From Candidatus Saccharimonadota bacterium (GTDB taxonomy: Bacteria > Patescibacteriota > Saccharimonadia > Saccharimonadales > Saccharimonadaceae): 64,000 bases of DNA. Below are positions 5,342 through 64,000 of the stretch, piece by piece. The stretch spans positions 62,001 through 126,000 of the forward strand of contig JAUCSD010000001.1 of assembly GCA_030445245.1 (NCBI GenBank), written 5' to 3'. Under the pieces are notes generated by a model. That model worked only from the letters and a program-made list of their open reading frames with translations, searched no databases and was not told where the DNA came from. Each line of letters opens with the position of its first letter. Position 1 is the first letter of the stretch. Both the position numbers and the translations under genes were made by a program.

Positions 5342-7048
5342 ATGCGAGTATCGCAATTATTCACAAAAACGAGCAAAACTGTACCAAGCGATGAAGTGGC
5401 AAAGAACGCCCAGCTTCTGATTCGTGCTGGTTTTATCCATAAGGAAATGGCAGGCGTTTATGCATATCTGCCACTTGGATTACGGGTGCTTGAAAATATC
5501 AAAAAAATTGTCCGCGAAGAAATGAACGCAATCGGTGGCCAAGAGGTCATGATGACCACGCTTCAGCCAAAAGATATATGGGAAAAGACTGATCGATGGG
5601 ATGATGCAAAAGTAGATAACTGGTTCAAGACGAAACTAACTAATGGAACAGAACTTGGCGTTGGTCTTACGCACGAAGAGCCTGTCGTAGATGCACTTTC
5701 CGCCTATATCAATTCATATAAAGATCTGCCAATTTTTACGTATCAGATTCAAAACAAATTCCGCAACGAATTGCGTGCCAAGAGTGGACTCTTACGTGGT
5801 CGTGAATTTGTCATGAAGGATATGTATAGTTTTGCACGTAGCCAAGAAGAACATGATGAAATGTATGAGCGTGCAGCCGTGGCTTACCATAAGGTATACC
5901 GACGTCTTGGACTCGGGGATTTTACTTACCGAGTTAAGGCCGATGGTGGTATATTTACTGAGCGATTTAGTGATGAGTTTCAGACGCTGAGTTCTGTTGG
6001 TGAGGATACATTGTTCCACGTGCCTGATACGGATGAATACTTTAATGAGGAAGTTGCTCCAGCACAAGCTCCCGCGGTCACGCCTGTTCCTGATGAGTCT
6101 CTCGCTGAGTTTGAAGAAGTAGAAGCCGCCGGTGTTATTGGTGTAGCTGTGCTTGCTGAGCTTCTCGGCATTCCATTTGAAAAAACCACCAAGACTATGC
6201 TTTATACGAGCGACACAGGGGAGACTATTGCGGCGGTAGTTCGCGGTGGATATGATATTAACGAGATTAAGCTCCGAAAAATAGTCGGGGCACGTAAGCT
6301 AGTTCTTGCTGATGAAGCAACAGTTAAGCGGGTTACCGGTGCAGAAGTAGGATATGCCGGCATTTTGAACCTTGCTGCCGATGTGCGAGTTATCGTTGAC
6401 GAGTCATGTGCTAATCGAACTAACTTTGAAATGGGTGCAAATCGTACTAATTTCCATGCGACGAATGTTAACTGGGGTCGCGACCTACCTCTTCCTGAAG
6501 AGTTTTACGATATTAAGGTTGCCCGCAAGGGGGATGTTCATCCTGAATCAGGTAAAACCTATGAGTTACACCGTGCTGTTGAGGTAGGTAATATTTTTCC
6601 ACTTGAATCTAAGTATACCGATGCCCTCGGTGTTTACTATACAAATGAAGAGGGTAAACAAGAGTCTATTATCATGGGTTGTTATGGGATTGGCGTGAGC
6701 CGTCTCATGGGTGTTATTGCCGAACACTTCAGTGACGATAAGGGACTTGTATGGCCTGAAAATATTGCTCCCGCCAAAGTGTACCTTGTACGTATCGGTG
6801 GGGAAGTGGCCACTAAGCACGCTGATGAGCTTTACGATGAGCTTATGGGAAAAGGTATTGAAGTTATGTATGACGACCGTGATGAACGACCAGGTACAAA
6901 GTTTGCCGATAGCGAGCTAATCGGTATCCCACACCGCGTTACTGTGAGTGATCGATTAATAGAGGCAGACAGCTATGAATATACACCTCGAATGAGTGGC
7001 GTGTCAGAGGTGTTGACACACGACCAGCTGCTTGGTAAACTTAATTGA
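5342..7048 (+). CDS. proS: prolyl-tRNA synthetase
   Basis: A class II synthetase that charges tRNA-Pro. Its 568 residues match the bacterial type, with an editing (INS) domain between motifs 2 and 3. Motif 2 is seen in FRNELRAKSG...REFVMKD at about residues 140-160, motif 3 in GCYGIGVSRLMG near 445-455, and an anticodon-binding domain fills the last 100 residues (DRDERPGTKFADSELIG). The ATG follows an AGGAG ribosome site. It is preceded by a short proline-containing ORF that may control it. Confidence 0.97.
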   Translation: MRVSQLFTKTSKTVPSDEVAKNAQLLIRAGFIHKEMAGVYAYLPLGLRVLENIKKIVREEMNAIGGQEVMMTTLQPKDIWEKTDRWDDAKVDNWFKTKLTNGTELGVGLTHEEPVVDALSAYINSYKDLPIFTYQIQNKFRNELRAKSGLLRGREFVMKDMYSFARSQEEHDEMYERAAVAYHKVYRRLGLGDFTYRVKADGGIFTERFSDEFQTLSSVGEDTLFHVPDTDEYFNEEVAPAQAPAVTPVPDESLAEFEEVEAAGVIGVAVLAELLGIPFEKTTKTMLYTSDTGETIAAVVRGGYDINEIKLRKIVGARKLVLADEATVKRVTGAEVGYAGILNLAADVRVIVDESCANRTNFEMGANRTNFHATNVNWGRDLPLPEEFYDIKVARKGDVHPESGKTYELHRAVEVGNIFPLESKYTDALGVYYTNEEGKQESIIMGCYGIGVSRLMGVIAEHFSDDKGLVWPENIAPAKVYLVRIGGEVATKHADELYDELMGKGIEVMYDDRDERPGTKFADSELIGIPHRVTVSDRLIEADSYEYTPRMSGVSEVLTHDQLLGKLN

Positions 7049-7131: not shown

Positions 7132-7587
7132 ATGAAAAAAACATATCAGATCACAGAAGAAGGCAAGCATGAACTTGAAGCCGAGCTCGACGAGCTCAAA
7201 GGCCGACGTGGCGCAATTGCTGAGAAAATTGCAGAAGCGCGTGATTTTGGCGACTTAAGCGAAAACGCTGAATATGACAGTGCTCGTGAAGAGCAGGGTC
7301 TTGTTGAAAGTCGTATTGCCGAAATTGAAGATATTCTCTTGAATGCAGATATCATTAAAGCCGGCAAGAGCTCAAAGGTAAGTCTTGGTAACAAGGTTGA
7401 GCTTCGTACTGGCAAGAAAACAGTCACGTACACTGTTGTTGGTCCCGTTGAAGCCGACCCTCTTGAAGGCAAGATTAGCAACGAATCACCAATCGGTGAA
7501 GCATTGATGGATAAAAAAGTAGGTGATAGTGTTACGATCACAACGCCTAAGGGTGAGATCACGTACGAGCTCGTTTCGATCAAATAA
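7132..7587 (+). CDS. greA: transcription elongation factor GreA
   Basis: GreA enters the RNA polymerase secondary channel and stimulates cleavage of backtracked RNA. The 151 residues begin with the coiled-coil stalk; its acidic tip is visible as DFGDLSENAEYDSAREEQ (about residues 38-55). The FKBP-like C-terminal domain follows (SPIGEALMDKKVGDSVTI). It has an AAGGGA ribosome site and stands alone, with its own promoter region and a terminator immediately downstream. Confidence 0.97.
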   Translation: MKKTYQITEEGKHELEAELDELKGRRGAIAEKIAEARDFGDLSENAEYDSAREEQGLVESRIAEIEDILLNADIIKAGKSSKVSLGNKVELRTGKKTVTYTVVGPVEADPLEGKISNESPIGEALMDKKVGDSVTITTPKGEITYELVSIK

Positions 7588-62538: not shown

Positions 62539-62704
62539 TGAGTATGTACAGGATACCCTGTTTGTAGGAGTAATGTAGTATTTATTGGTTATATGAGGAC
62601 GTATGAGTAATCAACTATATCTCTTATATCTAATGTCGTAAAAGATATATTGTGCGACCCATAATCTCTGGATGTATTACTACCCATAACGTGCAAAGGA
62701 TTTT

Positions 62705-62917
62705 ATGAACGCGGACAATATCGTATCAAAAGTTACACGGGTTTACGTCAAAACTGCCCTATCAAAGAAAACCAACGAAAAGTACTCCCAGCTAAAAATT
62801 GAGTTTGTTAATGGCTATACATTTACAGCCTTTTTAAATGACGAGCAAATCTTTGCCGTTAAAGATGCCATGAAAACTCAAACCAACAATAATGACTTGC
62901 TAGATCAGGTCGACTAG
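62705..62917 (+). CDS. small protein, possible ssDNA-binding protein of the phage-like cassette
   Basis: A 70-residue soluble protein whose sequence suggests a short beta-rich fold: VSKVTRVYVKTALSKKTN (about 7-24), then YSQLKIEFVNGYTFTAFLND (about 27-46) and EQIFAVKDAM. Strand pattern, size, basic N-terminal half and place ahead of the coat genes resemble the gene V-type ssDNA-binding proteins of filamentous phages, but no diagnostic motif is present, so the role is an inference. AAAGGA lies 6 nt before the ATG. Confidence 0.45.
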   Translation: MNADNIVSKVTRVYVKTALSKKTNEKYSQLKIEFVNGYTFTAFLNDEQIFAVKDAMKTQTNNNDLLDQVD

Positions 62918-62921
62918 CAAG

Positions 62922-62941
62922 GATGTTCTAGTTTTGTTCTA
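62922..62941. repeat. 20-bp repeat, copy 2, with a palindrome
   Basis: GATGTTCTAGTTTTGTTCTA, near-identical to 62192-62211. Here it extends into the perfect palindrome GTTCTAGAAC (62936-62945), between the putative ssDNA-binding gene and the first coat-like gene, where an operator or promoter element would be expected. Confidence 0.7.
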
Positions 62942-62971
62942 GAACCTTAACCCTAGAAAGGAATACACACA

Positions 62972-63154
62972 ATGCAACCAGTCGCAACACTTGGCGCAGC
63001 CATATTTGCACCAGCTGACGGTACAGCGCTTATCGGTTCTATCACTACCATGATCACCGATAACCTCCCTGGCCTTCTTGTCCTTATCGGATTTGGTGTC
63101 GGTTTTGCCATTTTCCGCAAGATGTTAAACAAGTCCCACAAGGGCAAAATTTAA
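62972..63154 (+). CDS. putative major coat protein of an inovirus-like element
   Basis: A 60-residue protein with a short polar/Ala-rich N-terminus containing one acidic site (APADGTALIG), an amphipathic stretch (SITTMITDN), one membrane helix (LPGLLVLIGFGVGFAIF, about 32-48) and a basic tail (RKMLNKSHKGKI). This acid-TM-basic plan is that of filamentous phage major coat proteins, although no cleavable signal peptide is obvious. GAAAGGA precedes the ATG. Two related proteins follow in the same cassette. A hairpin after the gene could make it the most highly expressed. A VirB2-type pilin is the main alternative. Confidence 0.55.
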   Translation: MQPVATLGAAIFAPADGTALIGSITTMITDNLPGLLVLIGFGVGFAIFRKMLNKSHKGKI

Positions 63155-63159
63155 CCCCC

Positions 63160-63191
63160 TGTCCCCATTTGACCTCACTCACTTGGGGACA
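63160..63191 (+). terminator. hairpin after the first coat-like gene
   Basis: Perfect 8-bp arms TGTCCCCA and TGGGGACA around a 16-nt loop, without a T run. It may be a partial terminator or RNA-stability element that raises the level of the upstream coat mRNA; in phage M13 a terminator follows the major coat gene at the same place. Confidence 0.5.
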
Positions 63192-63214
63192 CCATATTAA
63201 TTTGAAAGGCAATC

Positions 63215-63328
63215 ATGGAAACATTATTACTCGCTGTCGCAATAATCATCCTCGTACTAACGTACAAAAAGGTGGAAGCAATTTTAAAACTTCTGCTAAT
63301 TGACGAAAAAGAGGCTGATATTAAATGA
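63215..63328 (+). CDS. 37-residue TM protein of the phage-like cassette
   Basis: A tiny protein with an N-terminal membrane helix (METLLLAVAIIILVLTY) and a charged tail (KKVEAILKLLLIDEKEADIK). GAAAGG lies 8 nt before the ATG and the stop overlaps the next gene by 4 bp (ATGA). Size and topology resemble the minor coat proteins pVII and pIX of filamentous phages, small enough to be missed by standard gene finders. Confidence 0.5.
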   Translation: METLLLAVAIIILVLTYKKVEAILKLLLIDEKEADIK

Positions 63329-63507
63329 GTCAGATAATTTCCGGCGAGCAAATGACATTAACTGTCGGTGCGATAGTTAATTTCTTTAAAGAAAATATCT
63401 CAGGTGTTTTACTTCTCGTCGGATTCATTATCGGATTCAGTATTGTCGCAGCATTATTTGATGATTGGAACGAAGAACGTAATTTTAAGAAAAGGTATCA
63501 CCTATAA
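63325..63507 (+). CDS. second coat-like small TM protein
   Basis: A 60-residue protein related to the one at 62972: after EQMTLTVGAIVNFFKEN comes ISGVLLLVGFIIGFSIV, which lines up with LPGLLVLIGFGVGFAIF of the first protein. The tail is charged (FDDWNEERNFKKRYHL) rather than purely basic. It overlaps the gene before by 4 bp and the one after by one base, so the cassette is translationally coupled. Likely a second coat or channel-type subunit of the same particle. Confidence 0.55.
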   Translation: MSQIISGEQMTLTVGAIVNFFKENISGVLLLVGFIIGFSIVAALFDDWNEERNFKKRYHL

Positions 63508-63674
63508 TGACTCCCCTCTCCCCTGCTGATCTTGTTGCTTTGATTACTCAGCAAGTTGCACTATCTATGCCGACGTTAGTGCCGATCATTGCTGCATGTG
63601 CTGGAGTAAAAATCGTATTAGATCTTATTTTTGATTACACCATGGGAATTACTGGCCGAACAAGAGGTCGGTAA
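63507..63674 (+). CDS. third coat-like small TM protein
   Basis: A 55-residue protein starting at a TAATG overlap. PADLVALITQQVALSMPTLV is followed by one membrane helix (PTLVPIIAACAGVKIVLDLI) and an Arg-rich end (GRTRGR). It fits the same plan as the proteins at 62972 and 63325 and is probably a more distant paralogue. Its stop overlaps the next start (TAATG). Confidence 0.5.
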   Translation: MTPLSPADLVALITQQVALSMPTLVPIIAACAGVKIVLDLIFDYTMGITGRTRGR

Positions 63675-63784
63675 TGCCAGATCTTAATTTTTACGACAAG
63701 GTCATTCTGTTAGCTACAGCTGGCATAGATTTTTTAATTATTTGGTACTTTGTACAGAAATTAACAGGTAAACGACGTGACTAA
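63674..63784 (+). CDS. 36-residue TM protein of the phage-like cassette
   Basis: A tiny protein reading MPDLNFYDKVILLATAGIDF at its start, then IIWYFVQKLTGKRRD: one membrane helix and a basic end. Start overlaps the previous stop by one base; its end overlaps the next frame by 8 bp. Comparable in size to pVII/pIX-type minor coat proteins. No independent family evidence. Confidence 0.45.
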   Translation: MPDLNFYDKVILLATAGIDFLIIWYFVQKLTGKRRD

Positions 63785-64000
63785 GGAAACTAAACCATGG
63801 GCAGGACGATTAAAAGCATTGTCATTCGCGTTATTGCTGGCATTATCATCGGTTTGTTCTTTACTTATTTCGCCATTAGCTAAGGCTTCTAGTGATTATG
63901 GAATACGTACTACAACTTCAACTTCTTTAGGAGGTGGTGATTGTCCTGCTACAGATACGACATATATTTGGTCTGAGTACTGGTCTCAAGATCAAAGTCA
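63777..64000 (+). CDS. secreted protein, possible pIII-like adsorption protein (partial)
   Basis: A GTG-initiated frame that stays open to the end of the window (74 codons seen). It starts with a clear signal peptide: basic MTKETKPWAGRLKA, hydrophobic LSFALLLALSSVCSLLIS, and a probable cleavage after PLAKA. The mature part begins SSDYGIRTTTSTSLGGGDC and is Thr/Ser/Gly-rich with aromatic residues (TTYIWSEYWSQDQS). A large secreted protein directly after tiny coat genes is where filamentous phages place their host-attachment protein. The rest lies outside the window. Confidence 0.55.
   Translation, partial: MTKETKPWAGRLKALSFALLLALSSVCSLLISPLAKASSDYGIRTTTSTSLGGGDCPATDTTYIWSEYWSQDQS

Follow-up and report, generated by a model that had tools for sequence, protein, structure and literature searches.

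The 64,000-nucleotide stretch analysed here (the window; C1:62,001-126,000 of a saccharibacterial genome that is a single contig of 1,164,240 bp) ends inside a 4,988-bp integrated element, located at C1:124,635-129,656, which is very probably a complete inovirus (Tubulavirales-type) provirus lodged downstream of ftsQ, at the one dif-like Xer site of its host. The element encodes the proteins by which Inoviridae and Tubulavirales are recognised, a Zot/pI ATPase, a coat protein and an HUH Rep, and it has the marks of an IMEX phage: no integrase or transposase of its own, and a dif-like attachment site whose 6-bp centre matches that of the host. The interpretation first offered from the letters of the window's end, an inovirus-like structural cassette beside a division cluster, is supported. 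Neither half of this finding is without precedent, for CPR inoviruses (Roux et al. 2019, PMC6813254) and Xer-exploiting inoviruses are already known.

Genes across the window end

The 15 kb following the window were taken as part of a 19-kb locus, L002, in which a window position equals the L002 coordinate plus 60,000. The features of the element and its ends are:

62633..62667 (+): attL, an Xer-type (dif-like) site in full, ATGTCGTAAAA-GATATA-TTGTGCGACCC, together with the remainder of the 26-bp end repeat (62642-62667)
62705..62917 (+): gV-position protein, possible ssDNA-binding protein, 70 aa; also stands first in related elements, with homologues in other genomes
62972..63154 (+): probable major coat protein, 60 aa, one transmembrane (TM) segment, basic C-terminus; phrog_1646
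63215..63328 (+): 37-aa TM protein, from ORF and hydropathy; no homologue found
63325..63507 (+): 60-aa TM protein, possible second coat; weak similarity to the coat of G038 (E 0.025)
63507..63674 (+): 55-aa TM protein, minor-coat-like; 44% identical to the G036 homologue in the same place (E 6e-11)
63674..63784 (+): 36-aa TM protein, minor-coat-like; 53% identical to the G036 homologue in the same place (E 7e-9)
63777..64000 (+; whole gene L002:3777-5222): start of a gIII-like protein with a full length of 481 aa, a signal peptide, a variable ectodomain and a TM at the C-terminus
L002:5219-5485: gVI-like protein, 88 aa, three TM; overlaps or abuts the gIII-like gene
L002:5485-6270: Zot/pI ATPase, 261 aa, GRQGSGKT; Pfam Zot
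L002:6376-6648: 90-aa protein, an ORF between the Zot/pI ATPase and the candidate origin hairpin
L002:6664-6705: candidate origin hairpin, loop TACTTGAGAATA, just upstream of rep
L002:6714-7472: Rep, 252 aa, HUH motif HFHALL; PF23343
L002:7621-7655 (beyond the window): attR, TGTTTGTACAA-GATATA-TTGTGCGACCC

All seven consecutive small genes that the sequence-only reading had placed on the + strand between 62705 and 64000 are found in the ORF calls, with gaps of 54 and 60 bp at the first two junctions and the claimed overlaps of 1-8 bp at the remainder. The order of genes in M13 is gV - small coat genes - gIII - gVI - gI. The same order, suspected from the window alone, is borne out when the locus is read across the window end; the element differs from M13/fd in encoding no gIV secretin, in carrying Rep at the other end, in having a pI with no TM recognised by hydropathy, and in integrating. 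Genes 1, 2, 5 and 6 have homologues in identical order in G036 (E 7e-9 to 1e-16), genes 1 and 2 have them in further genomes as well, and related elements show small TM proteins in a similarly compact array; the seven-gene array is thus more than a product of chance. Genes 3 and 4 (37 and 60 aa) lack any clear homologue elsewhere.

The major coat protein is probably gene 2 (62972-63154) and not, as had been proposed, one of the later small genes. This is a short single-TM protein which, by its TM and charge pattern, ends in a basic C-terminus; phrog_1646 ('major coat protein') matches it at E 0.034 alone and matches 5 of its 11 homologues, the best at E 4.8e-6. The suggestion that gene 1 is an ssDNA-binding protein holds as regards position, first in the array, and finds less in the protein itself. 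Its PHROG matches are weak (one homologue has a weak ssDNA-binding-protein match), and a fold search with its model (predicted alpha-beta3-alpha, pLDDT 73.5) yielded nothing convincing: COMM domains head the results at Z 5.6, with Pur-alpha, a nucleic-acid binder, at Z about 4. A gV function is therefore assigned by position, as a possibility. The seventh gene, read as a signal-peptide protein running off the window, does so, and ends at C1:127,222; in relatives its C-terminal part is homologous and its N-terminus divergent, and a structure prediction for the gIII-like protein (L137 with two relatives) has a mean pLDDT of 33, which makes it unusable.

The two genes whose presence downstream would speak for a filamentous phage are both there. 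The Zot/pI ATPase, with a Walker A motif (GRQGSGKT) in its N-terminal part and a match to PF05707 of 27.2 bits (cut-off 20.3), lies no more than 2.3 kb past the window end; Rep, the rolling-circle replication gene, lies within 3.5 kb and matches PF23343 (REP_ORF2-G2P) at 42.4 bits (cut-off 27.8) as well as phrog_3419; PHROGs agree with Pfam on both. As to the TM segment expected in the ATPase, an anchor that is typical of pI but not shown to be universal, a simple hydropathy scan gives none above threshold here or in related elements; the three-TM protein encoded directly upstream could supply the membrane anchor. The outcomes named beforehand as counting against a phage, no Zot gene within ~10 kb or conjugation genes coming next, were checked and neither was encountered; inside the element there is no VirB4, VirB6 or TraG gene. 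Nor does the element encode a secretin or, by its full ORF list and by profile searches of its larger proteins, which gave Zot and Rep matches only, an integrase, transposase or recombinase. All of its ORFs are open and complete, and its GC content is 0.39, against 0.44-0.45 in the immediate flanks.

The stem-loop upstream of rep recurs with TACTTGATAATA in the same place in L124 and L137, and in looser form in L122, L128 and L011 (in the last of these downstream of rep); CTTGATAATA resembles the nick site of the pC194 type, which is a lead only. A different hairpin, GGGCTAACTCTTAAAAGCCC (one base varies), is shared by L012, L123 and L125 downstream of rep, and is perhaps an alternative origin or a packaging signal. 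A perfect 19-bp inverted repeat (L002:6283-6301 and 7228-7246) has one arm in the strong hairpin region that follows zot and the other within rep. Two relatives carry extra ORFs between rep and attR (L011:11342-12055, 237 aa; L125:9658-10185, 175 aa), which are possible cargo genes.

Attachment sites, host address and host recombinase

Two direct copies of a 26-bp sequence, AAGATATATTGTGCGACCCATAATCT, identical throughout, stand 4,988 bp apart on either side of the genes, so that chromosomal integration, one of several states considered at the outset, is the one in which the element sits here. The 25-bp core of the repeat was not found elsewhere in the 19-kb locus with up to three mismatches allowed, and no tRNA or Rfam feature was found as an attachment site. 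At attL two dyad arms surround a 6-bp centre, the arm-centre-arm layout by which Xer sites have been described (PMC5357621); attR shares the centre and the right arm, and its left arm is divergent.

The site exists in these chromosomes independently of the element. The motif GTCGNAAAAN6TTGTGCGAC occurs in 68 of 101 relatives, from many families, and in one copy in 66 of them, the two genomes with two copies being multi-contig assemblies; the reversed control has no match. Thirty of these loci were read: 22 have the end of ftsQ on the left, 10 a VirB4-like gene on the right and 25 at least one of the two, and a single locus (L053, in the G036 genome) belongs to a known element carrier. Since element-free genomes hold the site between the same ftsQ and VirB4-like neighbours, the element is an insertion into an ancestral address. 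The stretch immediately outside attR, before the VirB4-like gene is reached, holds a gene for a PF14337 Abortive-infection alpha protein (L002:8087-8761, 4.1-4.8 kb past the window end; 75.5 bits, cut-off 29), possibly a defence gene at the site of phage entry.

In sequence and in copy number the address has the properties of dif (28 bp, two 11-bp arms, a 6-bp centre, one per chromosome); in position, which for dif is near the GC-skew terminus, it does not. It lies at 124.6 kb and the cumulative skew maximum, computed from fetched stretches of the genome, at ~362 kb, 237 kb away; hence the designation dif-like rather than dif. The distance from dnaA varies little, being about 24-31% of the circle in five genomes (24% in this one). 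Near the dif-like site (C1 around 112-125 kb) the skew drops stepwise from ~0.11 to ~0.05, and it changes sign only near 362 kb.

This genome (G000) encodes one Xer-type protein, of 314 aa from the first ATG, which scores 249 bits against the NCBIfam XerD model and 246 against XerC, both below the equivalog cut-offs, and 229.6 bits against NF040815, above the cut-off of 220. Exactly one Xer was found in each of seven genomes tested (ORF 323-363 aa), and in one element carrier, G320, it is the only tyrosine recombinase found. The tyrosine recombinases of the present genome lie outside the element, and from the single Xer of the host we infer that this enzyme integrates the phage. A second, unrelated tyrosine integrase of 400 aa and an integrase fragment lying about 3.5 kb upstream of it (G000:C1:640373-644419) point to a further integrated element.

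Related elements, viral contigs and known systems

Searches for Zot, in the 101 relatives and in 393 genomes from the order, yielded 16 elements, this one included. A Zot-profile match was obtained in 40 genomes, 28 of which, with generic P-loop matches below 26 bits, were left out; the 393 genomes hold 12 strong Zot matches, and most relatives are without the element. All 16 element Zots match Pfam Zot, and the order gV-coats-gIII-gVI-gI-rep is the same in close relatives. Every one of the 16 adjoins ftsQ, and in nine the DNA fetched also shows the VirB4-like gene on the opposite flank. In 12 of the 13 elements readable at both ends, again including this one, the central hexamer is equal at attL and attR, and it differs between hosts (GATATA, TATACA, TATATC, CATACA, CGGACA, GATACA, TCTGTA); none of 200,000 shuffles reaches an agreement of 12. 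The thirteenth is L012, whose hexamers differ; in L122 and L126 one site each was recognised, and in L128 no pair. The closest provirus Zot (63% identical) belongs to a host of another family, with ftsQ 20% identical; in G036 ftsQ is 58% and Zot 56% identical; and over all pairs the identities of Zot and ftsQ correlate weakly (Spearman 0.26). At the level of these sequence comparisons, the element family is shown to have spread between host families.

Relatives of the element are also present among viral contigs of IMG/VR (L134, L137 and L138), which a search with a single protein failed to bring up as close relatives and an alignment query found. L137 is an integrated form, with ftsQ. L138 (4,666 bp) starts inside zot and continues through rep - attP - coat genes - gIII - gVI, with no ftsQ, its attP being TTGTCATTCAA GATATA TTGTGCGACAT. 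A junction of circle type, as an extrachromosomal form would have, is thus present in a relative; it could be that of a circle or of tandem copies. The exact dif-like 24-mer occurs in 3 of 2.9 million viral contigs, two of which are these inoviruses. The third is a 43.5-kb contig (L140, IMGVR_UViG_3300025703_000011) with a complete copy of the dif-like site at 6223-6246, possibly a tailed phage, judged by its ORFs. Through the conserved 24-bp site, an orphan viral contig can be given a host of this kind.

CPR bacteria were among the new inovirus host phyla of Roux et al. (2019), whose CPR inoviruses are likewise integrated and were detected through pI/Zot and neighbouring genes; the main text of that paper does not name Saccharibacteria and describes no dif attachment site for these phages (PMC6813254). 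A mechanistic parallel is with the IMEX inoviruses of the VGJphi and CTXphi types (PMC5357621), which use the host Xer in place of an own integrase, as this element probably does, whose attP likewise has one good Xer arm, a matching centre and one divergent arm, and whose integration likewise leaves an intact dif-like site. They differ in that XerC and XerD serve in Vibrio, as against one Xer here, and the site here is away from the GC-skew switch. The attachment site of the Legionella element LME-1 (dif/XerL; PMC9765430) similarly reveals its host's single-Xer site, but LME-1 is proteobacterial, is not shown there to be an inovirus, and its site is invariably close to the terminus. In GenBank, circular genomes with no host assigned, named 'Inovirus sp.' (porcine) and bajarodino virus encode Zots 35-39% identical to that of the element (best E 6e-42), and the bajarodino viruses a related Rep, in a different gene order. 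The half-site TTGTGCGAC is in none of 13 examined GenBank inoviruses with related Zot, so there is no sign that those phages use this host site.

Oral TM7 genomes have been run through an inovirus detector, and the relevant passages describe nine phage groups, none stated to be an inovirus (PMC7739484); the main text of a survey of Saccharibacteria phages is without mention of inoviruses (PMC10746230); and the filamentous phage of PMC13059738 is assigned to a gammaproteobacterial host. Neither a saccharibacterial dif/Xer system nor this element came up as the subject of any paper in the literature searched.

Alternatives, proposed cycle and meaning for the host

The element might be thought a domesticated filament, whose coat, gIII and pI genes are kept as a secreted fibre for contact with the cell's own bacterial host, phage replication having been lost; in favour are the supposed episymbiotic habit of the host lineage, the position beside a division cluster and the presence of an element at the same place in several species. 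This is very unlikely: the ends are clean, with Rep and both att sites intact, the sparse distribution noted above leaves most relatives without any such fibre, Zot similarity follows host similarity only loosely, and L138 is a relative existing as a host-free permuted contig. An integrated Rep-bearing plasmid or conjugative remnant, with small TM proteins that are T4SS pilin-like, is scarcely credible. What speaks for it is the VirB4-like gene 1.2 kb beyond attR; but this gene also adjoins empty sites in relatives and, standing beside the site in 10 of the 30 examined, is chromosomal, whereas the Zot and coat profiles match within the element. No T4SS gene lies between attL and attR, and for the element within those limits the T4SS reading was rejected.

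That this is a real inovirus provirus, now defective and immobile in this genome, is improbable. The pI-type ATPase is without TM by hydropathy, this genome offers no second copy or evidence of a circle, and CTX-type IMEX phages unable to excise are known (PMC5357621); on the other hand, no ORF is interrupted or truncated, both att sites are intact with identical hexamers, and the pI proteins of related elements likewise show no TM by hydropathy. The preferred reading, a complete provirus at the dif-like site, has points against it as well: the hydropathy of pI, the distance of the site from the GC-skew maximum, a gV assigned by position, the option of tandem copies in L138, the differing hexamers of L012, and the missing sites in L122, L126 and L128.

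A cycle for such a phage can be proposed. The circular phage genome would carry an attP in which a divergent arm and a good arm enclose the 6-bp central region of the host. Recombination of this attP with the chromosomal site, by the only Xer of the host, would produce an intact dif-like site at the left end and a hybrid one at the right. Rep would nick the hairpin upstream of its gene, with copying by rolling circle, and the gV-position protein would coat the ssDNA. The pI/Zot ATPase and the small coat proteins would extrude the filament through a single membrane (no secretin being encoded), and the gIII-like protein would bind the next host cell.

A bolder proposition, to which we give slightly less than even credence, is that a phage family confined to one episymbiotic CPR order lives off the host's single Xer and thereby marks that order's true dimer-resolution site, which would keep a fixed distance from dnaA, between a quarter and a third of the circle, and stand well apart from the GC-skew terminus. 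If this is true, chromosome segregation in these reduced cells would depart from the textbook scheme. CPR phages are poorly known, and this one would be a chronic, non-lytic filamentous phage of cells that live on other bacteria, which raises the questions of what serves as phage receptor on an ultra-small episymbiont, whether the filament makes contact with the episymbiont's own host, and whether such phages may be used as genetic tools. The element itself provides an attP/dif-like pair, together with candidates for the single Xer and the replication origin.
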